A stretch of 64,000 bases of DNA, from NCBI RefSeq assembly GCF_000671395.1, contig NZ_AQQY01000005.1, positions 186,001-250,000 of the forward strand. Reading direction: 5' to 3'. This DNA comes from Actibacterium atlanticum (GTDB lineage: Bacteria; Pseudomonadota; Alphaproteobacteria; Rhodobacterales; Rhodobacteraceae). The position numbers and the translations under genes were made by a program. Numbering within the stretch: position 1 is the stretch's first letter; the number at the start of each line of letters is the position of its first letter. The notes under the pieces were generated by a model. The model was not told the origin of the DNA. It saw nothing but the letters and a program-made list of their open reading frames with translations, and searched no databases. Of this stretch, positions 46,394 to 59,324 are shown piece after piece.

Positions 46394-46493
46394 TCATCTT
46401 TTCAAACTTTTCTGGATAGGGTGTCGCAGGTGTCGCATTGGCTTGTTTCCTTGGGCTTTGGCCTGTCGCATGACCCGTCGCAGGGGTGTCGCA
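46291..46493. repeat. Cluster of GGTGTCGCA iteron-like repeats, candidate replication origin
   Basis: Exact GGTGTCGCA copies occur at 46420-46428, 46429-46437 and 46485-46493, with reverse copies at 46298-46306 and 46342-46350. Degenerate copies lie at 46331-46339, 46462-46470 and 46474-46482. GTCGCA-A-TGCGAC at 46291-46303 is a perfect dyad. The cluster spans the 3' end of the helicase gene. P4-type replication proteins bind short iterons, so this is a plausible origin. Confidence 0.6.
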
Positions 46494-47767
46494 AGGGCTT
46501 CACACCGGGATTTCATCGCGAACTTCGCACCACGTTCCTCGAAGCCCAGTTTCCGCAGTTCGGCGATCATAGTGTCGTGGGCCACCGGAAGGCGATCCCC
46601 GCGCCGGTCGGACCACTCCCGGAACTCCCGGTAGAGGTTGTTATTCGCGGTCCATGCGTCGCCCTTGGTTTCGCTGGTATTGATCAGCATCTCTTCGGCG
46701 AACCGGGCGACAGGTCCCATCATGTCGTCCGCTTGCCCATCTCGAGCCGCCTGACCGCTCTCCGGCTGTTCGAGCCTCGCTCCGGCGAGCATCTTCCGAG
46801 CACCTTCGAGCGCCCAGTGAAGGATCGCCGGAAGCTCCGCGTCGAGCTTCTCCTTCAACTTGGGGTCCTCCTTTCCCAAGAAGCTCTTGGGCATGGGAAG
46901 GACGATCATCCGGGACATGATCACTGGCTTCCGGAGCTTCATCGTCTCGTTGGAGAGGACCGTGATCCGTCCGGGGAGCTTCTCGGTCGGCAGGGGCGGC
47001 TTATACTTCCGCTTGACCTCGACGATGTCCTCGCCGGTGATCTGAAGGAGCCGGTTGACGATAGTCGAAACGTCCGCCCGGTCGATCCGCGTCTCGGACA
47101 TGATCAGGATCTTCTTGCCATGTGCGCCCTCGAAGGGAAACGCGCCCTCCATCCCCTCCAGTTCCAGCGCCGCGACATTCGCCGACCCGTTGAGACGTGT
47201 CATCACATGGGCAATCGTCCCCTTTCCGCTCCGGGTCTTCCCGACGAGGTTCACGAACCGTTGCTGGCTGGTGTCGTCCAAGAGGTTGTATCCGATCCAG
47301 AGCTGAAGGAACTCGATCAGGTCCGGCGTGCCATCCCACACGCTGTCGAGGAACTTCAACCACTCGACTGCGTCGCCGATATCGGGATCGAAATCGAAGG
47401 GCATCGCGTGGCGGTTCCGGAATTCGGGCGAATGCGGCTCCAGCTTCCTGGAGGCGATGTCGAGGACGCCGTTCCGGAAGGCGATCTTCCCCGGGACCGG
47501 CTCGAACGCCTCTGGCATCTCGACCGCCGTCTCCATCGCGTGGATGATCTCCGCGAACTTGGCTTTCTTAGGCGTCTCCCCCATCAACTGGACGGCGAAC
47601 CGGTTCACGAATTGCTTGAAGCTGATCGATCCGAGGCGGGTCTTTTTCCAATGGTCCCCGGTGTGCATCAGCCAATCCTCGTCGAAGACGACGAGCGGCG
47701 CGGTCTCCGCGATCATCTGACCGACGGCGACGGGATCCTTCATGTTTTCGGTGCGAGCGTGTGCCAT
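46394..47767 (-). CDS. P4/D5-type SF3 helicase (primase-helicase family)
   Basis: The 457-residue protein has a D5-type N-terminal region and an SF3 helicase core with Walker A GKTRSGKGT at 176-184 and later Walker B ILIMSETRID. A C-terminal winged-helix-like region (AELRKLGFEERGAKF) follows. It would unwind the element's origin. It appears intact, unlike the adjacent prim-pol. Its last codons lie within the GGTGTCGCA repeats. Confidence 0.88.
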   Translation of the reverse strand: MAHARTENMKDPVAVGQMIAETAPLVVFDEDWLMHTGDHWKKTRLGSISFKQFVNRFAVQLMGETPKKAKFAEIIHAMETAVEMPEAFEPVPGKIAFRNGVLDIASRKLEPHSPEFRNRHAMPFDFDPDIGDAVEWLKFLDSVWDGTPDLIEFLQLWIGYNLLDDTSQQRFVNLVGKTRSGKGTIAHVMTRLNGSANVAALELEGMEGAFPFEGAHGKKILIMSETRIDRADVSTIVNRLLQITGEDIVEVKRKYKPPLPTEKLPGRITVLSNETMKLRKPVIMSRMIVLPMPKSFLGKEDPKLKEKLDAELPAILHWALEGARKMLAGARLEQPESGQAARDGQADDMMGPVARFAEEMLINTSETKGDAWTANNNLYREFREWSDRRGDRLPVAHDTMIAELRKLGFEERGAKFAMKSRCEALATPLRRVMRQAKAQGNKPMRHLRHPIQKSLKR

Positions 47768-47770
47768 GGT

Positions 47771-48753
47771 TCAGCCCTCCACCGCTTTGAAGCCGTTCTT
47801 GGCGAGCCATTTTCCGATTTGTCGTTCGATCTCGCCCTCCGGGTCCCGTCTGGGCTTCCCGGCGCTGTCGACGTAGGCATAGTCCGAGATCGGCCATCGC
47901 GGATTGAGAAGGCAGGAGGCGACCATGTCCTCCATCTCGTCCGGGATCGTATCCATCCCGCCCAGAACCCCGCCGATGAACGCGAACATCCACTCCGACC
48001 GGCTGCCGTAGCCGCTACAGTCGGTCAGGAGCTTCAGAGGCATCCAGAACTGTCCGGACTGCCTCTTCGTCCCAGACATCGTGATCGATGGACAGGTTGA
48101 CAGGGACGATCCCCTTCAGCCCAACCGAGGCGGACGCCTCCGACATTTCGTCGGGGTCGATGCGCTGGTCCCAGTCTTCGAGGAAGACGCGCGCGCCGCC
48201 CCTTTCGTTCGGGCTTCCGGTTCACGAACCCCGGCAGTCGGAAAACGTGGTCCACGCTCTGGGTACTGTCCACGACGCCCAACTCTCCGACGACCTCGCG
48301 CATCTCTTCGGTGAACGCTTCGCTCTGACCCTTGGCTCGCGGGACGTCGGTCATCGGTTCAGGATAGAGCCAGACGAACTGCATCCCGCCGCCAGTGATC
48401 CAGCCCAAGGTGGGCGGGAGGTAGTCCACGACCGGCGCCCTCGCGGCGATCCAGTCGGTCACATTGTCGACGTCGATGGCGAGACCCCGAACGGCAATAA
48501 CGTCGATTTCTCTGGGCTTGGCGAGCTTCCCATGGCGGACGCTCGGTCCGGACATGACCCACTCGTGAGGCGAGCGGTCGTGATCGTTTAGGACGAATTA
48601 GACACAGCAGCCGCGCCCATTCCAATAGATCGCGTCGCGGATCGCGTCGTCGATGCCGTCATATTGCCGGGTCCAAAAGACGCCATCTTGGCTTCGAAAG
48701 GAGAGGGTCGGGCGGGTGATGCCCAAACGGTTGAGGAAGTCTTTCGTCTGCAA
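47771..48753 (-). pseudogene. Phage-type prim-pol gene broken by one nonsense codon and two frameshifts
   Basis: From a TTG start at 48753 the frame gives DFLNRLGITRPTLSFRSQDG, then an in-frame TAA at 48598-48600. It continues with RGLAIDVDN and VFRLPGFVNRKPERKG. An extra base in the CCCC run at 48199-48202 shifts the frame to ARVFLEDWDQRIDPDEMSEA. A second shift near 48017 leads to GYGSRSEWMFAFIGGVLGG and the C terminus at 47771. The joined product reads as a bifunctional primase/polymerase of about 325 residues. Sequencing error could explain one lesion but hardly all three. Confidence 0.8.
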
Positions 48754-48756
48754 TCG

Positions 48757-48942
48757 TCATGCCCCCGCGTTCTCGCGAAGGTCGCGAAGGTGTTCGTCGA
48801 GTTCGCCTTCGGGCCAATAAAGCTTCCCGCCCAACTTCAGCGGCTTGGGCAGTCGTCCAGCGTTGAGGTCTTCGTAGATCGCAGAGCGCGAGCGGTTTCC
48901 CAGCTTCTCGCGAACTTCAGCGAGGGTCAGATACCTGTTCAT
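48757..48942 (-). CDS. AlpA-family helix-turn-helix regulator
   Basis: The 61-residue protein (MNRYLTLAEVREKLGNRSRS, then AIYEDLNAGRLPKPLKLGGK) matches the AlpA/MerR-type HTH small proteins that activate integrase or excision in P4-like elements. Its TGA stop lies four bases before the prim-pol TTG start, and its start overlaps the stop of the upstream HTH gene. Confidence 0.85.
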   Translation of the reverse strand: MNRYLTLAEVREKLGNRSRSAIYEDLNAGRLPKPLKLGGKLYWPEGELDEHLRDLRENAGA

Positions 48943-49214
48943 GCCGTGCCCTCCCGAAGCCAGAGGTCGAGGCCAACGCGAGGATAGAGAACCAGCCGAC
49001 CACGCTTCACGTATTCGGGACCAAGCCCCTCATATCGCCACGCTTCAAGTTGTTTCTTGCTGATGCCAAGGTATTCCGACGCCTTCGAGGTGTTGAGCCA
49101 CATCGGCACGACGACTCTGGCGTGGTCGAGAGCCTCGCTGACGCGCTCGTCGACCCTCTCGCGGATCAAGTCTTCAATGTTGTCTGGGACATCGCCCATC
49201 ACGTCATACTCCAA
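48939..49214 (-). CDS. HTH (excisionase-like) protein of the integrated element
   Basis: The 91-residue protein has a helix-turn-helix in its second half (LNTSKASEYLGISKKQLEAWRYEGLGPEYVKRGRLVLYPRVGLDLWL), typical of phage excisionase/HTH_17 domains. The N-terminal half is acidic and helical. It overlaps the alpA gene by four bases. A role in excision or regulation is inferred. Confidence 0.75.
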   Translation of the reverse strand: MEYDVMGDVPDNIEDLIRERVDERVSEALDHARVVVPMWLNTSKASEYLGISKKQLEAWRYEGLGPEYVKRGRLVLYPRVGLDLWLREGTA

Positions 49215-49379
49215 CTGTCTAGTCAGGTTATGACGCTGCTCCCCCTCGCGGGACGGGAGCTAACCCCCATGTGACGAGCCTTGGGAGCGCCGTATCGCTT
49301 GTTTTTCCTATCAGGTGCGATCAGATGGCGCAAGGAAAAAATACATCAAACATCAATGGTTTACATCTGCCGAAATTGA

Positions 49380-50561
49380 TCATTTACAACTGCCGGAAAC
49401 ATGGTTGGCCCAGCGTTCGGCCAGCTCCCGCCGCTGATCGAGATAGTCGGTCCGCCGATAAGCCCGCACTACGTTGCTGTCGGTCAAATGAGCCAGCATC
49501 GCCTCCGCGACTTCATGCGGGGCGTCGGTCGCTTCTGCCAGCCACGTCCGCAACGACGTCCTAAACCCATGCGGGCGAGCCTGCAGCTCCCGCCGCTTCA
49601 TAAGCTGTGAGAGCGTCATGTCGCTGATCACGCCCTTGCGGGAGTTGGCGAAGAGGAAGCCATTTCGGGCGAAGGGGCGGGCGGCGTCGATCACGTGCAG
49701 AGCTTCGCTCGACAGGGGAACACGGAAGTCTTCAGTCGCGCCCTTGCGTCCCTTCATAGCCTCGCCGGGGATCGTCCAGACATCCCCATCGATCTGATCG
49801 AGATGCAGGGTCCTCAAAGGAGCGGAGCGAGCGCCGGTCAAGATCAACAGCCGCAAGGCAAGATGCGACGGGGTCTGTTCCGACAAGCTGGCATAAAAGT
49901 CCGGCACGTCTTGCCATGGCATCGCAGGGATGTGCTTCGCAACATGGCGGGACTTGCCCAGTAACGCCTTTGCCTTCTCGGTCGCTTGCAAGTCGACGTC
50001 CAGGCCCAGTGCCGCCGCGTGGCGAAGAACGATTGAGAGCCGGTTCAGCGCCTTGCGCGCCGTTTCGGCTTTCGTGTGCCAAAGCGGAGCGAGTGTGTCG
50101 CGAATGTCGCGTTGGTCGAGGTCGGTCACCGGAACCTTCCCCAGCTTCGGCAGGACGTGGTTTTCGAGCGGCGACATCCAGCGGCCCGCCTTCCCATCGC
50201 CCTTCAACTCCGCCATGCGGGCTTCGAATGCGTCTTGGGTGATCACCGAGAGCGAGATGTCCTCCCTCCGCGCCGCCTTCGCTTCCTTCTCGCGTTCCTT
50301 CACCGGATCACGTCCGGACTTGGCGACGGCGCGCCAGCGGTCCCCGGCTTCACGTGCATGGGCCAAGCTTACATCGGGATACCCGCCCAAGCCCATCTCG
50401 CGTCTTCGGCCATGGACGGTCGTTCGCAGCACCCACTGAGCGCCCCCGTCCTCGCGCTTCACGAGCCACAGACCAGCTCCGTCACAATGCTTGCCGACCG
50501 GGGCGGTCTTCACGAATGTTGCCGAAAGTCGATTGCGCGCACGCATGTGCACCATGCTCAT
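49380..50561 (-). CDS. P4-type tyrosine integrase
   Basis: The 393-residue protein has an N-terminal DUF4102 arm-binding domain (KHCDGAGLWL, RRREMGLGGYPDVSLAHARE) and a catalytic domain with Arg245 (TGARSAPLR), HGFR at 331-334, His358 (LAHLTD) and Tyr373 (TDYLDQR). It appears intact. Its AGGTGG ribosome-binding site lies inside the 20-mer repeated at 46206. Integrases of this group often use tRNA genes, but no tRNA is adjacent here. Confidence 0.93.
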   Translation of the reverse strand: MSMVHMRARNRLSATFVKTAPVGKHCDGAGLWLVKREDGGAQWVLRTTVHGRRREMGLGGYPDVSLAHAREAGDRWRAVAKSGRDPVKEREKEAKAARREDISLSVITQDAFEARMAELKGDGKAGRWMSPLENHVLPKLGKVPVTDLDQRDIRDTLAPLWHTKAETARKALNRLSIVLRHAAALGLDVDLQATEKAKALLGKSRHVAKHIPAMPWQDVPDFYASLSEQTPSHLALRLLILTGARSAPLRTLHLDQIDGDVWTIPGEAMKGRKGATEDFRVPLSSEALHVIDAARPFARNGFLFANSRKGVISDMTLSQLMKRRELQARPHGFRTSLRTWLAEATDAPHEVAEAMLAHLTDSNVVRAYRRTDYLDQRRELAERWANHVSGSCK

Positions 50562-50971: not shown

Positions 50972-52834
50972 TTAGGGGCTGAATTCCGTCTTGGACAAGC
51001 CATAGCGCTTCAATCTGGAGTAAAAGGTGGGCGCGGGGACGCCCAGAAGTTGCGCCGCCCCGCCTGGTCCGGCAACTTTGCCATCGGCTTCCTTCAAGCA
51101 GTTCAGTAAGTTGGCGCGTATTTCGGCCTGCATTTCGTGTTCGGTTTTCGCGTGGCTGATGCCGGTTTGCTCTGGTGTCTTGCCATCGCCAAGCTCGACG
51201 ATCAGTTTGCCACCATTTGAAACAATGATGCCGCGCTCGATCACATTGCCCAGTTCGCGTACGTTTCCGGGCCAGTCATAGGATGACAAGCGTTGGATCA
51301 CCCCTTCGGTCACGATCGGCAGCGGCCGATTGAGCCGTTTGCAGGCCATGGCCAGAAGGTGCAGCGTAAGCTCGGGGATATCCTCTTTGCGGGAACGCAG
51401 GGGATGGCAGGTAATCGGGAATACGTTCAGGGTAAGGTACAGGTCCTCTCTTAATCGGGCTGCCGCAACAGCGCGCTCCAGATCTTTAGAGGTGGCGGCG
51501 ATCACGCGCAGGTCAATGTCTCGGGCGCGGGTGTCGCCAAGGCGCGTGACCGTGCGGCTGCGCAAAGCATCAAGCAGGCGGCCCTGTACCTCCAGCGGCA
51601 ATTCTTCGATATCGTCCAGAAACAGGGTGCCCCCATGGGCAAGCTCCAGCTTTCCGGGCTTGTCGCGCAACGCGTTCTGATAGCCGCCCCGTACCTGGCC
51701 AAACAATTCGGCTTCCAGCGCGTCGGGCGCGACCGAGCCGCAGTTGAAGTGGATCAAAGGGCGCTGGCTGCGGGCGCTAGCCTTGTGGATGGCCGTTGCG
51801 ATCAGGGCTTTGCCGGTGCCCGCTTCGCCCGATATCAGCACCGTTGCGTCTGTCGGGCCGACAAGATCAATCTTGGTCAATAACTGCCGTGTGGGCAGGC
51901 TGTTGCCAATGATGTCATGGTGGGCGCGTTCGCTGGTAATGGCCTCTTGCAGATAGGCGTTCTCCTGCTCCAAACGATCCCGCAATTCGGCCACTTCATC
52001 CATGGCCTCGCGCAGCTTGCGCTCTCCTTCTTTGCGTTCTGTGATGTCGCGAAAAATGACCACCGCGCCAGCCAGCACCTGCTGATCGTAAATCGGGGTC
52101 GAAACATATTCTACCTGAATGGGTTTCCCATCCTTGCGCCAGAACACCTCGTCTTCGATCCGATGCACCTGTTCAAACCTGAACGACCGATAGATCGGGC
52201 AATCATGAGAGTGATACTTTTCACCGTTCAGACGCTGGTGGTGAATTTTCGAATGAATGTCATGCCCCAAGAGATCCTCGGAGGTCCATCCCAGCATCTC
52301 TTGGGCAGCGCGATTGACGAAGGTGGTTTTGCCTTCGGCGTTTACGCCATAGATGCCTTCGCCCGCGGCGTTTAGGATCAACTGGTTCTGGCGCTCCAGT
52401 TCGGCAAAAAAGGCTTCGGTGCGCTTCCAATCTGCCAGTCCGGCGCGAAAGATTTCTGCTGCTGCGGTGATCTCGGCCCTTTTTTCCAGATCGCGCAAGT
52501 CACTTATCAGCAAAAGCAGGCAGTTCTGGTGACCCGCGATTTGCCGGGCCCGAATTTCGCATTTCAATGGCGTACCGTCGCGCTTGGTCAGGCGGATGTC
52601 ACGTGTCCAGCCTTCGCCGCGGTGATCTACCTCGCTGGCGAAAACAACGAAATTGGGCAAATCATTGCGGACAAACTGAGAGAAGTGGATCGGCGTTGAG
52701 CTGGCCTGTGCGCCCAGCAGTTCAGCGGCGGGTGGATTCCAGGCCAAAATCTGATCAACAGATGTGTCCAAAACCACTGCCGCTTCGGGCAGGGCATGCA
52801 GCAGGGAATCGGGAAGCAGAGTTTCGGGTGTCAT
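50972..52834 (-). CDS. PAS-AAA+-Fis type regulator lacking GAFTGA, divergent from the cyanate operon
   Basis: The 620-residue protein has two PAS-like sensor regions (about residues 10-115 and 148-265), a coiled stretch (270-300), an AAA+ core with Walker A GEAGTGKA (336-343) and Walker B GGTLFLDD (401-408), and a C-terminal Fis-type HTH (GGAAQLLGVPAPTFYSRLKRYGL). The sigma-54-contact loop GAFTGA is replaced by GGYQNA (383-388). It therefore probably regulates by contacting another sigma factor or as a repressor. It is divergent from the cyanate ABC/cyanase operon. Confidence 0.85.
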   Translation of the reverse strand: MTPETLLPDSLLHALPEAAVVLDTSVDQILAWNPPAAELLGAQASSTPIHFSQFVRNDLPNFVVFASEVDHRGEGWTRDIRLTKRDGTPLKCEIRARQIAGHQNCLLLLISDLRDLEKRAEITAAAEIFRAGLADWKRTEAFFAELERQNQLILNAAGEGIYGVNAEGKTTFVNRAAQEMLGWTSEDLLGHDIHSKIHHQRLNGEKYHSHDCPIYRSFRFEQVHRIEDEVFWRKDGKPIQVEYVSTPIYDQQVLAGAVVIFRDITERKEGERKLREAMDEVAELRDRLEQENAYLQEAITSERAHHDIIGNSLPTRQLLTKIDLVGPTDATVLISGEAGTGKALIATAIHKASARSQRPLIHFNCGSVAPDALEAELFGQVRGGYQNALRDKPGKLELAHGGTLFLDDIEELPLEVQGRLLDALRSRTVTRLGDTRARDIDLRVIAATSKDLERAVAAARLREDLYLTLNVFPITCHPLRSRKEDIPELTLHLLAMACKRLNRPLPIVTEGVIQRLSSYDWPGNVRELGNVIERGIIVSNGGKLIVELGDGKTPEQTGISHAKTEHEMQAEIRANLLNCLKEADGKVAGPGGAAQLLGVPAPTFYSRLKRYGLSKTEFSP

Positions 52835-52871
52835 GGTGCAAACGTTAACGAGCTATTGCCTTATGGTGTTG

Positions 52872-52903
52872 TGAAATTTCATAAATTATGAATAATCATA
52901 ATT
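52872..52903. promoter_or_regulatory. Two palindromes between the regulator and cyanate operon
   Basis: TGAAATTTCA at 52872-52881 is a perfect 10-base palindrome. AATTATGA-ATAA-TCATAATT at 52884-52903 is a perfect eight-base inverted repeat with a four-base spacer. Both lie between the divergent genes and are candidate binding sites of the AAA+ regulator or of a nitrogen regulator. Confidence 0.45.
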
Positions 52904-53035
52904 ATTGCACGTGAGGTTTCAATTCAACATATTGATAATAAAGATATAATTGGGCTGATCAAAAAGTAAGCAGTGGGTTTTTTTAATCCCCGTGGCGGTG
53001 TCAACATGAGGCAAGCCACAACATAGGGGACGAAA

Positions 53036-54424
53036 ATGACGATCAAGAGTCTTGGAAATCCATTCTCGGCAAAGACCGATCTGCGCCATGGTGCAGACTG
53101 CGGTTGCGACACCTGCCTGTCGGGCCACGGCCACGACAAAGACCATATCGAAGCCACACAGATGTCTTCCGAAGACATGCTGGACCGTGCGATTGAAAGC
53201 GCGGTAGTGCGGTCTGTCTTTGGTCAAAACGACATCAGCCGCCGTTCGTTCATGGGGATGATGGGCGGGGGCACCATGGCCGCCGCTCTGGCCTCGGTCT
53301 TTCCGATGGACAAGGCCAAGGCCGCCATTCTGGACGATCTGGGCGCGCCTGAAAAAACCGATCTGAACATCGGTTTCGTGCCGATCACCTGTGCGACGCC
53401 GATCATCATGGCACAGCCGATGGGCTTTTATGAACGCTATGGCCTGAACGCTCAGGTGATCAAAACCGCAGGCTGGGCCGTTGCGCGCGACAAGTCGCTG
53501 TCGGGCGAATACGACGCCAGCCACATGCTGACCCCAATGCCGTTGGCGATGTCGCTGGGCGCGGGTTCGGTCGCCACGCCCTACATCATGCCCGCCGTTG
53601 AAAACATCAACGGCCAGGCGATTGTTCTGTCCAACGAACACCTCGACAAGCGTGACCCGAAACAGTGGAAAGGCTTCACCTTTGGTGTGCCGTTCGAATA
53701 CTCGATGCACAACTTCCTGCTGCGTTACTACGTGGCTGAATTCGGTCTGGACCCGGATGTTGATATCCAGATCCGCGTTGTGCCGCCCCCCGAGATGGTC
53801 GCCAACCTGCGCGCCGGTAACCTTGATGGCTATCTGTCGCCCGACCCGTTCAACCAGCGTGCCGTTTGGGAAGGCATCGGCTTCCTGCACACGCTGACTA
53901 AAGACATCTGGGAAGGCCACCCGTGCTGCGCCTTTGCCGCGCCGCTGTCTTTCGCGCAAGAGCTGCCCAACACCTATGGCGCGTTGCTCAAGTCGATCAT
54001 CGACGCCACCCAATTCGCGTCGAAGGCCGAAAACCGCAAGGAAATCTCGGCGGCGATTGCCCCGACCAACTATCTGAACCAGCCGGTTCCGGTGATCGAG
54101 CAGGTGCTGACCGGCACCTATGCCGATGGTCTGGGCGAGGTGAAACAAGTGCCTGACCGGATCGACTTTGATCCATTCCCGTGGCACTCGATGGGCGTGT
54201 GGATCCTGACCCAGATGAAACGCTGGGGCTATATCGAAGGCGATGTCGACTACTCGAAAGTCGCCGAAGAGGTCTATCTGGCCGCCGACTGTAAGAAGGT
54301 GATGAATGATCTGGGCTATGAAGCCCCGGACATTACCTACAAGTCGCACACGATCATGGGCAAAACCTTCGACCCGGCCGAGCCCGAAGCCTACGTTTCC
54401 AGCTTTGCTATCGGGAAAGGCTGA
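53036..54424 (+). CDS. cynA: ABC transporter substrate-binding protein, NrtA/CmpA family (probable cyanate)
   Basis: The 462-residue protein has a long N-terminal region with CGCDTCLSGHGHD, then a twin-arginine signal RRSFMGMMGGG at about residues 62-72 and an NrtA/CmpA-type binding domain (NIGFVPITCATPIIMAQ, SLGAGSVATPYIMPAVENING). The neighbouring cyanase gene points to cyanate as the substrate rather than nitrate or bicarbonate. It is the first gene of the operon, divergent from the AAA+ regulator. Confidence 0.88.
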   Translation: MTIKSLGNPFSAKTDLRHGADCGCDTCLSGHGHDKDHIEATQMSSEDMLDRAIESAVVRSVFGQNDISRRSFMGMMGGGTMAAALASVFPMDKAKAAILDDLGAPEKTDLNIGFVPITCATPIIMAQPMGFYERYGLNAQVIKTAGWAVARDKSLSGEYDASHMLTPMPLAMSLGAGSVATPYIMPAVENINGQAIVLSNEHLDKRDPKQWKGFTFGVPFEYSMHNFLLRYYVAEFGLDPDVDIQIRVVPPPEMVANLRAGNLDGYLSPDPFNQRAVWEGIGFLHTLTKDIWEGHPCCAFAAPLSFAQELPNTYGALLKSIIDATQFASKAENRKEISAAIAPTNYLNQPVPVIEQVLTGTYADGLGEVKQVPDRIDFDPFPWHSMGVWILTQMKRWGYIEGDVDYSKVAEEVYLAADCKKVMNDLGYEAPDITYKSHTIMGKTFDPAEPEAYVSSFAIGKG

Positions 54425-54427
54425 TCC

Positions 54428-55264
54428 ATGACGAAGACTCTGTCTGTGAATCACAAGGCAGCGCTTTTGTCGATCATTATGCTGGTGGTGGGCCTCCTGA
54501 TATGGGAGGCCGCCATCCCGGCACAAAAGGCCGCCGAAGAGCTGACAGAATACGAACGACTGACAGGGGGAGGCGCACCCAAAGCCGGTGTGCCGCCGCC
54601 CAGTCAGGTGCTTGCCAAAGCGTGGGAGCAGTTAAGCAACCCGTTTTATGATGCAGGCCCGAACGACAAAGGGATCGGGATCCAGATCGGATACTCGATC
54701 TATCGCGTTTTGACCGGCTATTTCCTTGCCGCCATGGTGGCGATCCCGCTGGGGTTCCTGATTGGCATGAGCCAGGTCGCCTATAAGGCCTTCAATCCGT
54801 TCATTCAGGTGTTGCGCCCCATTTCGCCGCTGGCGTGGATGCCGCTGGCCCTGTTCATCATCCAGGATTCCGAGGCCAGCGCGATCTTCGTGATCTTCAT
54901 CTGCTCCATCTGGCCGATGCTGATCAACACCGCCTTTGGCGTCGCGGGCGTGCGCCAAGACTGGGTCAACGTGGCCCGCACCCACGAGCTGAGCCCGATC
55001 AAAACCGCATTCACCGTGATCCTGCCCGCCGCCGCACCCACCATCATCACCGGGATGCGCATTTCCATCGGCATCGCATGGCTGGTGATTGTCGCGGCCG
55101 AGATGCTCGTTGGGGGCACTGGCATTGGCTACTACGTCTGGAACGAGTGGAACAATCTGGACCTGACCTCGGTGATCTTCTCGATCTTGATGATCGGTGT
55201 CGTGGGCATGTTGCTGGACGCGGCTTTCGGCATCCTGCAACGCGCCGTGGCCTACGCGGAATAA
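54428..55264 (+). CDS. cynB: ABC transporter permease, NrtB/CynB family
   Basis: The 278-residue protein has six predicted helices and the binding-protein-dependent permease block [17 protein letters not shown] and the EAA-type loop [16 protein letters not shown]. It starts three bases after cynA. It forms the cyanate channel with the downstream ATPase. Confidence 0.88.
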
Positions 55265-55274
55265 GGAGCGACCA

Positions 55275-56183
55275 ATGTCGAAACCATTTCTCTCCATCGA
55301 GCGTCTGACGCAGAAATTCCCGGACGGTCAAGGCGGCGAACTGACCGTGTTCGAAGATGCCACCTTCGGCATTGAAAAGGGCGAGTTTGTCTGCATCCTT
55401 GGCCACTCGGGCTGCGGCAAATCCACCATCATGAACATCCTTGCCGGGTTGGCCGAGCCGACCTCGGGTGTCGTGAAAATGGACGGGTTTGAGGTCTCGG
55501 GCCCCTCACTGGATCGCGGTGTGGTGTTTCAAAACTACTCGCTGCTGCCCTGGCTCTCGACGCTGAAAAACGTAACTTTCGGGGTGCGGGCGCGTTTCCC
55601 GGACTGGTCAAAAGCCAAGGTCGAAGAGCACGCCCGAGAATATCTTGCGATGGTTGGGCTGGAGGGCGATGTGGTGCATCGCAAACCCAGCCAGCTTTCG
55701 GGCGGCATGCGCCAGCGGGTTTCCATCGCGCGGGCCTTTGCCAACCACCCCAAGCTCTTGTTATTGGACGAACCCTTTGGCGCGCTTGACGCTCTGACAC
55801 GGGGCACCATTCAGGACGAACTGCTGAAAATCTGGGGCGGGACCGAACAGACAGTGTTCATGATCACCCATGACATCGACGAGGCGATCCTGCTGGCCGA
55901 CCGTATCCTGTTGATGACCAACGGGCCTTTGGCACGCGTGGCGGAATCGGTGGAGATCACCATTCCGCGCCCGCGTAACCGGACCGAAATCGTCGATCAC
56001 CCGAACTATTACGCCATCCGCAACCATTTGGTGCAGTTCCTTGGGCAGCGCTCCAAGGAACTGGCCGGGCAACCCTCGGGCGGGGCGGATCAACGCCCCA
56101 CCGCCGTTTCAATCGACAAAACTGAACCGCCTGAAAAGGCTCCTGAAGACCCTGCCGCGCCCTTGCGCGCGGTGAACGAGTAA
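55275..56183 (+). CDS. cynD: ABC transporter ATP-binding protein, NrtD/CynD family
   Basis: The 302-residue ATPase has Walker [10 protein letters not shown], signature [15 protein letters not shown] and Walker [14 protein letters not shown], plus a C-terminal extension of about 40 residues rich in Pro, Ala and Glu. ATG 55275 follows AAGGAG; the longer frame overlaps the permease gene. It energises cyanate uptake. Confidence 0.9.
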
Positions 56184-56188
56184 TAGAC

Positions 56189-56665
56189 ATGACGACAGAA
56201 GCAAACCGTCCGCCGGTGCCTCCATTCACCTACGACGAAGCCGTGCAGAAAGTGCGCATGGCCGAAGATGCATGGAACAGCCGCGACCCGGAAAAAGTTG
56301 CGCTGGCCTATACGCCAAACACCCGATGGCGCAACCGGTCTGAATTCCCTAAAGGCCGGTCCGAAGTGCAGGAATTTCTGTCCCGCAAATGGGCCACCGA
56401 AACCGGTTATCGCCTAATCAAAGAAATATGGGCGCATTCTGAAAACCGGATCGCGGTGCGGTTTTGCTATGAATACCATGACGAAAACGGCCAGTGGTAT
56501 CGCGCCTATGGCAACGAAAACTGGGAGTTCGCCGAGACCGGCCACATGGATGTGCGCCATGCGTCCATCAATGATGTGCCCATCGCCGAAGCAGATCGCT
56601 TGTTTCTGTGGCCGCAAGGGCGGCGCCCCGATGACCACCCCGGCCTGACCGAGCTTGGTCTGTGA
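56189..56665 (+). CDS. DUF1348 (nuclear transport factor 2-like) protein in the cyanate operon
   Basis: The 158-residue protein has the DUF1348 pattern: [53 protein letters not shown] and [16 protein letters not shown]1348 proteins have an NTF2-like fold and no agreed function. It lies between the ABC genes and cyanase and is translated from a start five bases after cynD. Confidence 0.82.
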
Positions 56666-56690
56666 CCCTGAATTCATAAAGGAGTAGATG

Positions 56691-57161
56691 ATGAAAGACA
56701 GCTTTGAGGTACCCGTGATGATGACGAAAGAGGACGTCACCATGATGATCCTGTCAGCTAAGAAGCAGGCCGGTCTGACGTGGGAGGAGATCGCTGAAAA
56801 GATCGACATGTCACCGGTCTGGACGCACTCAGCCTGCATGGGCATGAACGCCTTTCCCGCCGATAAAGCCGCTGCATTGGTCACAGCCATGGCCCTGCCG
56901 CAGGAAGCCGCCAGCGTGCTGGAAGAGCCGCCCACCAAGGTCTGGGAACAATCTGTCCCCACCGACCCCTGCATCTATCGTTTCTACGAAATTGTTGGCG
57001 TCTATGGCCCGACTCTGAAGGCGTTGATCGAAGAAAAATTCGGCAATGGTATCATGTCGGCGATTGACTTTGACATGACGGTCACGCGCGTCCCCAACCC
57101 CAAGGGGGACCGGGTCAAAGTCGAGATGTCTGGAAAATACCTGTCTTATAACAGCTGGTAA
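56691..57161 (+). CDS. cynS: Cyanate hydratase (cyanase)
   Basis: The protein of 156 or 157 residues has an N-terminal HTH-like domain and the catalytic region CIYRFYEIVGVYGPTLKALIEEKFG...IMSAIDFDM with the conserved Arg, Glu and Ser. Cyanase converts cyanate and bicarbonate to ammonia and CO2. ATG 56691 is preferred because AAGGAG lies six bases upstream; the ATG three bases earlier is possible. It is the last gene of the operon. Confidence 0.95.
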   Translation: MKDSFEVPVMMTKEDVTMMILSAKKQAGLTWEEIAEKIDMSPVWTHSACMGMNAFPADKAAALVTAMALPQEAASVLEEPPTKVWEQSVPTDPCIYRFYEIVGVYGPTLKALIEEKFGNGIMSAIDFDMTVTRVPNPKGDRVKVEMSGKYLSYNSW

Positions 57162-57242: not shown

Positions 57243-59324
57243 TCATGACAAACGCTCCTTTTTCGACTTGAGGATAAGCGGCACGCACTGGGTCTTATCG
57301 TTGTAGATCGTCACGCAATCTAGGCATTCAAAGCATTCGTCGTATCGGATGCGCCCGGTTTTTGTGATCGCACCGTAGTTGCACTTGACCTTGCAAAGCT
57401 GACACGGGCTTCCACATTCGGAACGCCGCGCGATCCACTCCCGGCGGCGCAACAAACCGCCAATTGCCATCAGCGCCCCCAACGGACAGACGTACCGACA
57501 GAACCCCTTGAACAGCATCGTCGCCGCGATCAGCCAGAACGCACTATAGGCGACGTAATACCACTCGCGCTTAAAGTAGGTTGAGATCGCCGTTTTAAAG
57601 GGTTCTACCTCGGCTGCCTTGTCCATTGCGCTGGGCACAAGCAGCGTCACCATCACCAGTCCTGCCAAGACCCCGTACTTCAGCCACTTCAGGCGGGTGT
57701 CCCAAATCGGGGACGGCTCAATACGTGGCAGGCGCAGCCAACGACCAAGGTGATGCATGAATTCCTGCATCGCGCCAAAGGGGCAGAGCCAGCCGCAAAA
57801 CAGTCCGCGCCCCCAGACAACAAACCCAAAGATCACGACCCCCCAAATCAGGATCGAAAACGGGTCATAGAGCAGAAACCCAAGGTTCTGCCCGGCCGCC
57901 ACAGATCGCAGCGCCCCCAAAGGGGTGACAATTGACAATTGTCCCTGCCCATACCACCCAACAAACCCGATCATGCAGGCCAAAAAAACCAGCCTAACGG
58001 GTGTATAGATCGCCAATCCGGCAAGCCATTCCATGCGCCTTAGCAACAGCAAAAACACACCAAACAACACAGCCGCCAACACGACCATATCCACCCATCT
58101 TTGTTCTATCGCACTGACCCACGGGGGCACGACGCGCGGCGGCTTGGGGGTGACGAAAAACCGGGCCGGCGCGGCATAGGTTGTGGTCAGGGAAATGGTC
58201 CCGATCTTGGGCTGGACAACCCCTTTTTCCCGCTTTGCCTGCAGCGAAATTTCCCAAGGTTCTATCGGGTTGAACCCCGAACGCCTGTCGGTGCGTAAAA
58301 CCATGGCAATCCCGTCCTGAGGCGCGTCATCGGCCAGTTCCAGCAACAGGTCGGAATCCCGTAGCGCGAAAGGAAAACCGCCCTGTTTGGCGGAAATAAG
58401 GGACGGAACCGTGTTGCGGATAAAGTCCTCGGTCACAAGGCCATGGCGCGCCGTTTCGATCAGCAGGATCGGCTCGTCGTTGGGATAGATATCATGGAAA
58501 CTTTCCAGCTCTGCCAAGGTGTCTTGTGACAGGGCCGCGCGTGCCACCGAAGGTGGCCCAATGTCTACGATCCACAAATCAAGATAGGGCGCTTGCGGGT
58601 TGGCCAGAGCCTCTGGGTCCTGCCCGGCGAAAATCGTTCCTGCAAAGGCCTCTTCGACCTCGGCGTTGGTGATGATCGTGCGCGCGGCAATGCCCTGGCG
58701 CACCAAATCGTCCCAACTCAGGCTTTCTTGAACCAAAGGGTCGGGCTGGGCAGGGGGGCCAGCCGAAAGGCCCTGCATCCGTTCTTTGGCGACCTTTTTA
58801 ACCGCCGTCAGGAGCGTTTCATTCGCGATCCGCACGCTGGCCGTCGCGGTGGTTACCCCATCAAGGTAGGTCAGCGCCGAAGCCTGTTGATCTTTGGCGC
58901 TGCCAAAGGGGTTTCCCACGACAAAGGGTTCGGTGATTGCTTGCCCGGCGTATTGGTCCAGAAATGCCTGAAACCGGGCATTTCCAAGCCCCGCGACAAA
59001 CATCGGCTCGAAATGGTCGATCAATTGTACGTCGATGAACCGCGCGTCATTGTCGACCATCACCAACATCTCAATCGGTGCACCGGCGAACCCGGATAAT
59101 GGCGCGATCGGGCCAGTTTCGAACACATAGCCAGCCTGAGATCCCGTATAGGAGATCAAGCTGTAGACACCATCATCAGACAGCAATTCCCCCACGGAAT
59201 ACCCCACCGGCAGATAGGTCGCGATCTGATCCGGAGAAAGCGGCTCTTTGGCCAGCGCGGCTTGCGCGGCAACGACCAGAAGAAGGGATTGCGCGAGGAG
59301 CCAAGCAAGAATTCTAAGTGCCAT
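57243..59324 (-). CDS. NosR/NirI-like flavoprotein with polyferredoxin domain
   Basis: The 693-residue protein has a signal peptide, a periplasmic FMN-binding domain with the covalent-flavin motif DGVTTAT at 155-161, six or so membrane helices and a C-terminal iron-sulfur region (CGWLCPFGAM, CRYVCPLGAL, CGSPCQLCKVKC and CFECLDC). This is the NosR/NirI layout. No nos or nir genes are present; the next gene upstream in transcription order is a MOSC protein at a three-base distance, so a different electron-transfer partner is likely. Confidence 0.9.
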   Translation of the reverse strand: MALRILAWLLAQSLLLVVAAQAALAKEPLSPDQIATYLPVGYSVGELLSDDGVYSLISYTGSQAGYVFETGPIAPLSGFAGAPIEMLVMVDNDARFIDVQLIDHFEPMFVAGLGNARFQAFLDQYAGQAITEPFVVGNPFGSAKDQQASALTYLDGVTTATASVRIANETLLTAVKKVAKERMQGLSAGPPAQPDPLVQESLSWDDLVRQGIAARTIITNAEVEEAFAGTIFAGQDPEALANPQAPYLDLWIVDIGPPSVARAALSQDTLAELESFHDIYPNDEPILLIETARHGLVTEDFIRNTVPSLISAKQGGFPFALRDSDLLLELADDAPQDGIAMVLRTDRRSGFNPIEPWEISLQAKREKGVVQPKIGTISLTTTYAAPARFFVTPKPPRVVPPWVSAIEQRWVDMVVLAAVLFGVFLLLLRRMEWLAGLAIYTPVRLVFLACMIGFVGWYGQGQLSIVTPLGALRSVAAGQNLGFLLYDPFSILIWGVVIFGFVVWGRGLFCGWLCPFGAMQEFMHHLGRWLRLPRIEPSPIWDTRLKWLKYGVLAGLVMVTLLVPSAMDKAAEVEPFKTAISTYFKREWYYVAYSAFWLIAATMLFKGFCRYVCPLGALMAIGGLLRRREWIARRSECGSPCQLCKVKCNYGAITKTGRIRYDECFECLDCVTIYNDKTQCVPLILKSKKERLS

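Follow-up and report, generated by a model that had tools for sequence, protein, structure and literature searches.

The cyanate locus

The window (the whole stretch of DNA analysed, 64,000 nucleotides) contains a cyanate operon and, divergent from it, a gene for a regulator of the CynF type; 201 bp separate cynF from cynA. Table 1 gives the coordinates of the features. Inside the operon, a DUF1348 (SnoaL-like) gene sits between cynD and cynS, and an NTF2-family gene is also found beside the cyn genes in Loktanella and Bosea. The gene directly after cynS, on the opposite strand, encodes a NosR-like membrane protein, which we named by eye (Pfam gives only Fer4_5). A tyrosine integrase lies just behind cynF, and a reading frame for a primase-like ATPase, also named by eye, is near it. 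These two genes behind cynF suggest an integrated element (46394-50561) beside the cyanate cluster.

Table 1. Features of the cyanate locus, with their positions in the window and what each assignment is based on.
Feature	Position	Strand	Basis
Primase-like ATPase ORF	46394-47767	-	named by eye
Tyrosine integrase	49380-50561	-	
cynF-type regulator (PAS, PAS, AAA+ (Sigma54_activat), Fis-type HTH)	50972-52834	-	ORF, Pfam, model
Fis-type HTH, about residues 590-612	50999-51067	-	alignment
Second arginine finger position, Thr468 for Arg	51431-51433	-	alignment column
Sensor-I position, Ser449 for Asn	51488-51490	-	alignment column
Walker B LFLDD, residues 404-408, catalytic Glu replaced by Asp (Asp408)	51611-51625	-	alignment column
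GGYQNA replacing GAFTGA, residues 383-388	51671-51688	-	translation, alignment
Walker A GEAGTGK, residues 336-342	51809-51829	-	column counts
Second PAS domain, residues 150-264	52043-52387	-	Pfam PF00989
Operator dyad 1, GTGAAATTTCAT (family form ACGAN4TCGT)	52871-52882		dyad search
Operator dyad 2, ATGAATAATCAT, 17 bp from dyad 1	52888-52899		dyad search
Putative IHF-like conserved block, ATTCAACATATTG	52922-52934	+	alignment, consensus
Imperfect copy of the palindrome shared with P-II gene promoters (putative NtrC-type box)	52956-52972	+	alignment
Proposed -35, TTTTTT, 17 bp from the proposed -10	52979-52984	+	footprint of 33 loci
Proposed -10, CAACAT	53002-53007	+	footprint of 33 loci
cynA, NMT1-like substrate-binding protein	53036-54424	+	Pfam
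cynB, ABC permease	54428-55264	+	Pfam
cynD, ABC ATPase	55272-56183	+	Pfam
DUF1348 (SnoaL-like) gene	56189-56665	+	Pfam
cynS, cyanase	56688-57161	+	Pfam
NosR-like membrane protein	57243-59324	-	named by eye; Pfam Fer4_5 only

The regulator departs from a sigma-54 activator at several positions

The regulator is 620 aa long by translation. Pfam identifies two PAS stretches, a Sigma54_activat domain (residues 308-474; PF00158, 185.3 bits, E 9.6e-55) and an AAA lid, and in the AlphaFold model the AAA+ region has a pLDDT mostly above 80. The original prediction described a protein with two PAS regions, in which GGYQNA takes the place of GAFTGA while Walker A, Walker B and a Fis-type HTH remain recognisable. 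The replacement is exact, and phmmer aligns VRGGYQNALRDKPG of the regulator to EKGAFTGAVQACPG of FlrC, which carries the GAFTGA loop. Walker A and the HTH are both present in the translation, and Pfam detects the two PAS stretches. Walker B is a partial case: its LFLDD motif is in place but the catalytic Glu is an Asp, giving DD where DE is expected. The roles of Walker B, sensor I and the arginine fingers in the sigma-54 machine are known from PspF and NtrC. As a bEBP the protein has no Thr/Ser in the loop, no Walker B Glu and no second arginine finger; the first finger, Arg462, is retained. A missing GAFTGA together with a preserved Walker A is the pattern of AAA+ activators of the Rhodobacter NtrC kind.

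The original prediction took such proteins for a rare class, which does not agree with the counts that we obtain. Nine of the 11 sigma-54-type AAA+ regulators examined in the regulator's own genome, itself included, have no recognisable loop, NtrC and NtrX among them (names given from sequence and neighbourhood; two weak PF00158 matches are outside the 11). Across the family, loss of the loop is common to 44 of the 45 CynF-type regulators examined. The only two of the 11 that keep the loop are L002 (GSFTGA) and L008 (NSFTGA), despite the presence of two rpoN genes.

Loss of the sigma-54 machinery is common to the family

We collected orthologues from the bacterial family of the source organism (Rhodobacteraceae), and from its order and phylum. 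The family search (394 genomes, E <= 1e-100) gives 29 genomes with a match, the window included. The order search (196 genomes, 1e-90) gives 24 matches, of which 16 are new loci, all in the same family. The phylum search (398 genomes, 1e-70) gives 33 genomes with a match, including that of the window; these yield 18 same-type proteins that belong to other families, which we call intact, and 11 more distant ones, with four further matches not counted. The family set has 45 members, the window included. One of them, L082, ends with its contig after the sensor-I region and is left out of the tree and of the counts for sensor I, the fingers, sensor II and the HTH.

The alignment check proposed with the original prediction gives a clear separation. 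The loop Thr/Ser is present in one of the 45 family members (L032) and in 18/18 intact orthologues. The Glu after the Walker A Lys (0/45 in the family) and the second arginine finger (0/44 readable members) are absent throughout the family, the sensor-I Asn is found in 5/44 and the Walker B Glu in 17/45 (lost in 28/45), against 18/18 intact orthologues in each case. What the family retains is the Walker A Lys, in 45/45 as in 18/18 intact proteins, and the first arginine finger, in 44/44 readable members. The loop, both fingers and the Walker B Glu are kept in all of the 11 more distant proteins. A Pro stands at loop position 4 in 13 of the 45 family members. Francke et al. 2011 describe about 110 loop-deviant homologues in which a change from Thr/Ser to Pro is preferred at this position (PMC3162934), and the CynF family resembles them in this respect.

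A tree of 73 rows, built by a quick method and midpoint-rooted for drawing, joins the family proteins in one clade (SH-aLRT 100) that is nested among intact CynF-type proteins, and it places the window regulator with the cyn-linked CynF-type proteins. Because a single family clade is nested within the intact ones, the intact state is probably the older and the loss a single switch followed by drift of the loop. Since all family members would descend from that switch, the joint loss of several features counts as one event and not as many. The one family member with GAFTGA, L032 (genome G074, L032:1489-3345), comes from a genome with rpoN; it has neither the second arginine finger nor the Glu after the Walker A Lys, and no sigma-54 site. 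It is a possible evolutionary intermediate, and its retained loop beside a missing finger and Glu suggests that ATP hydrolysis was lost before the loop.

Chance, or a sequencing oddity of one gene, is ruled out by a loss common to 44 of the 45 family members, and a pseudogene by reading frames free of stops and by purifying selection. We also considered a decaying remnant that has no function, to which the free variation of the loop, Walker B and sensor-I columns within the family would correspond. None of the 29 family-search or 24 order-search matches has an internal stop, however (L082 is truncated where its contig stops), and the operator is conserved. Selection is strongly purifying, in the AAA+ domain as well: dN/dS is below about 0.17 there in five of the six degenerate pairs with computable dS, although the high dS makes these ratios rough. 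We consider a remnant the least probable of all the readings weighed here, close to negligible.

The sigma-54 promoter and rpoN

We scored the regions between the regulator and the cyn genes against the sigma-54 consensus TGGCACG-N4-TTGCW (maximum score 21.2), using 44 family regions and 17 intact loci. These sets are without L039 (G351, degenerate), for which the 9 kb retrieved contain no cyn gene (L280), and L057 (G576), the one of the 18 intact orthologues with no cyn gene nearby in a wider region (L279). The best score is 18.0-21.2 in 17/17 intact loci and 12.0-17.2 in 44/44 family regions, so that a near-consensus -24/-12 site is present in all of the former and none of the latter. Shuffled sequences have a median score of 14.2 and reach 18.0 at the 99% level, a background within which the family scores lie. 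For the window, the original prediction had seen no sigma-54 motif upstream of cynA; we find none either, the best score there being 12.0, and sites with up to two mismatches over the whole window number 10 where 14.3 are expected. With scoring confined to the 400 bases that immediately precede the matched gene, 15 of the 17 intact loci reach 18. The other two, L054 and L055, have cynS as their only linked cyn gene (46-48% identity over about 147 residues), and they miss the mark because cynS is at a distance of about 1.3 kb and the sites themselves (19.0) are further up.

As an independent test we scored 600 bases at 12 named loci outside the discovery set. Among the matches listed, all eight named intact loci linked to cyn genes score 18.0-21.2; two of the eight are on plasmids, of Methylobacterium aquaticum and Bosea, and the other six include Bradyrhizobium, Aureimonas and Methylorubrum. 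At the Rhodobacterales plasmid locus of SC52 the loop is GAFPGA and the score 16.2, and at a Loktanella salsilacus plasmid locus (L213) they are GAFGGA and 15.2; both keep the dyad pair described below. No cyn gene was found at L138 and L139, which score 20.2 and 14.0, respectively, with GAFTGA.

The sigma factor gene follows a similar division. The RpoN DNA-binding domain is found above the cut-off in 10/45 family genomes and in 18/18 genomes with an intact CynF. Three more family genomes have sub-threshold stretches, and 35/45 have no rpoN above the cut-off; 44/45 family genomes are at least 90% complete. A 2025 survey reports that sigma-54 regulation of cyanate lyase is enriched in alpha- and gamma-proteobacteria (PMC12316311).

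The genome of the window has two rpoN genes. Absence of sigma-54 today therefore does not explain the loss in this genome. The two genes, together with the GAFTGA of L032 in a genome with rpoN, would be in keeping with continued activation at a sigma-54 promoter, with the loop and the promoter both divergent in sequence. We consider this very unlikely, as the second arginine finger is gone in all 44 readable members and no site rises above background in the 44 family regions, L032 included in both, and most family genomes have no rpoN above the cut-off. From the column counts, the promoter scores and the rpoN counts, the protein appears to be, as predicted, an improbable activator of sigma-54 in the usual way, and sigma-54 independence of the family CynF seems to us well supported by the sequences.

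The operator dyads

In 15 of the 17 intact loci, we find three ACGAN4TCGT palindromes with at most one mismatch (L052 has two, L058 none), and in those 15 the last two dyads are 17 bp apart and upstream of the -12 element. The family regions have a pair of these dyads in 44/44 cases, spaced by 17 bp in 43 and by 18 bp in L081, and no third dyad at the matching place. The distance from the family pair to the presumed cynF start is mostly 34-40 bp, and for the window dyads it is 36-65 bp. A hexamer could fit on three dyads and a tetramer on two, and the loss of one dyad would then go with the loss of the ring ATPase.

We searched for the dyad pair across 37 genomes (29 from the family set of 45 and 8 from the intact set of 18), allowing one mismatch. 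In 30/37 genomes (23/29 family, 7/8 intact) the pair occurs at a single place, each within 160 bp of cynF. It occurs nowhere in the other seven, the window genome among them, and the reversed control finds none. The window pair is the poorest of the 44 compared with the family form, with 11 of 16 half-site letters; the next-lowest pair scores 13.5, with a spacing penalty. Both window dyads have the form RTGAN4TCAT, which at 17-bp spacing occurs once in the genome, a pattern that we chose after seeing the site. In the recognition helix (residue 602), the window regulator has PAPTF, and relatives have, for instance, PATTF or KPTTL. The variant dyads and the altered helix are a possible matched change of DNA specificity.

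A subclade of degenerate regulators (L024, L026, L028, L077) has long intergenic regions of 271-283 bp. The transporter of these loci may differ, since their substrate-binding protein is only about 55-57% identical to the window CynA.

The candidate cynA promoter

We aligned 33 of the 44 family regions as a footprint, leaving out 11 with other spacing or long leaders, and four conserved blocks appear downstream of the dyads. The TTAA..cATTG block is 22-24 bp after dyad 2 in 31/44 family loci (best place, offsets 15-31). It resembles the IHF consensus and is a putative IHF site. The matrix of this block is matched in only 5/17 intact loci.

The next block in the family regions is the conserved palindrome TGCnCAAATTTTGnGC, a putative NtrC-type box judging from where else it occurs. 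Of 30 P-II loci, 3 are unreadable and 15 have unclear starts; in all of the other 12 the palindrome precedes the P-II gene by 123-155 bp, in 10 with a shuffling p <= 0.01. A matrix from the ten P-II sites exceeds the 99% level of 316 control regions in 28/44 family cyn promoters and 2/17 intact ones, and a harsher shuffle level (11.5) in 22/44 and 2/17, a test that is partly circular because the ten sites were picked with a matrix from the cyn boxes. Its constant location in P-II promoters is better evidence. An earlier control for this box, in which 14/44 passed the 95% level, was discarded, as most of the upstream regions in it belonged to loci that had been retrieved by a similar pattern. 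Exact copies of the palindrome, searched in 41 genomes, are mostly inside long reading frames (28 of 30 loci fetched).

The last blocks are a run of T and, 17 bp after it, CAnCAT, with the A at position 2 and the T at position 6 each conserved at 91% (33 loci). Conservation of this kind resembles that of a sigma-70 -10 element, and we propose the two as the cynA promoter. This sigma-70 promoter is the weakest link of the model. A general promoter scan has no match at it in the window, and with a simple score the top hexamer pair falls at 24-32 bp from the ATG in 19/44 family loci, the window locus not being among them. The sole plus-strand match of the scan, TTGTGA-16-AATAAT (52869-52896, 9/12), is weaker and falls on the dyads, and bound CynF would block it.

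These matches bear on the reading in which the regulator has become a repressor, or mainly an autorepressor, of the divergent region, relieved by cyanate, with activation lost or left to NtrC. TyrR is a relative with no GAFTGA that represses. The scan returns three promoter-like matches where 0.8 are expected, and those overlapping the dyads include, besides the plus-strand one, TTGAAA-16-TATGAT on the minus strand (10/12). The closeness of the dyads to the cynF start would also suit repression, and Caulobacter NtrC, which has no GAFTGA either, is described as both repressing and activating (PMC10274813). The dyads, however, are separated by about 100 bp or more from the cynA promoter proposed from the footprint, and they occupy the same upstream place as in the sigma-54 group, whose CynF is reported, for one species, to be an essential activator (PMC6627978). 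The distance of about 120-140 bp from the operator down to the proposed cynA start, and the essential role of the CynF that has been studied, leave the repressor less supported, and we regard it as unlikely. Of the two roles originally offered, a sigma-70-type activator similar to Rhodobacter NtrC is the better fit.

A proposed sigma-70 circuit

We propose that the regulator is probably an orthologue of CynF that has switched from sigma-54 to the housekeeping polymerase, one that binds ATP and does not go through the normal hydrolysis cycle. The family circuit keeps the ATP-binding motif, the PAS sensor, the HTH and the paired operator under purifying selection, and we infer that the family CynF activates with sigma-70. 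In the circuit that we envisage, CynF dimers would occupy the two dyads, at distances of about 120 and 137 bp upstream of the proposed sigma-70 cynA promoter. The NtrC of Rhodobacter capsulatus reportedly uses far-upstream tandem sites. ATP binding and PAS signalling would set the active form of CynF independently of a normal hydrolysis cycle, DNA bending at the IHF-like block would let CynF touch the sigma-70 polymerase, and the NtrC-type box near -50 may add nitrogen control to cynA. The position of the window dyads close to the cynF start makes self-regulation of CynF likely.

The nearest described system is that of Pseudomonas pseudoalcaligenes CECT5344, in which CynF is reported to be essential for expression of cynABDS, with no cyanase activity detected in its absence (PMC6627978). 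Its CynF is, as in the window, a Fis-type regulator divergent from cynABDS, and from that description we take the window protein to be its orthologue. The two differ in that the cynA gene of P. pseudoalcaligenes has a predicted sigma-54 promoter (PMC6627978), whereas at the window locus the loop, an arginine finger and that promoter are gone. The activator role proposed for the window CynF is assigned by analogy with this protein.

Regulators with no GAFTGA are as such already known (PMC3162934, PMC10274813). The NtrC of R. capsulatus has none, and is reported to act with sigma-70 and to need ATP binding and not hydrolysis (PMC10274813, citing Bowman and Kranz 1998), and the NtrC of Rhodobacterales is, like the window CynF, an AAA+ enhancer-binding protein that does not have GAFTGA (PMC10274813). 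In Rhodobacter NtrC the loop is deleted, the domain is REC, and the operator and targets are others; in the window CynF the loop is eroded and the sensor is PAS. HupR, TyrR and DhaR (PMC3162934) and VpsR (PMC10274813) are also described as sigma-70 dependent, having no working loop. They have other inputs and targets, and CynF differs from them in having intact sister orthologues with sigma-54 promoters. In the literature searched, mostly open-access, we found no CynF-type regulator switched together with its promoter and operator, and no experimental work on any family CynF.

More tentatively, and with slightly more doubt than belief, we suggest a circuit that outlived its sigma factor. The same regulator, operator and target would have moved from sigma-54 to sigma-70 in one bacterial family; the ATPase cycle would have been lost first, the loop eroded later and the third dyad dropped, leaving a non-hydrolysing activator of two dimers that acts from about -120/-137, and the same conversion may cover most of the lineage's enhancer-binding proteins. 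The usual view of sigma-54 control allows no middle course, with neither sigma-54 action nor an expressed gene once the loop is missing. In this case the two states of one orthologous circuit coexist, and the protein, promoter, operator and sigma gene can all be read, so that the change of polymerase of an enhancer-driven operon is directly testable.

The L. salsilacus CynF (L213) is annotated as a 'sigma 54-interacting transcriptional regulator', a label that is probably wrong in function. On this plasmid (plas2, L213:1-17836), cynF adjoins a nitrilase cluster of the Nit6803 and MSMEG_0567-0572 families, and clusters of this type are linked to cyanide assimilation.
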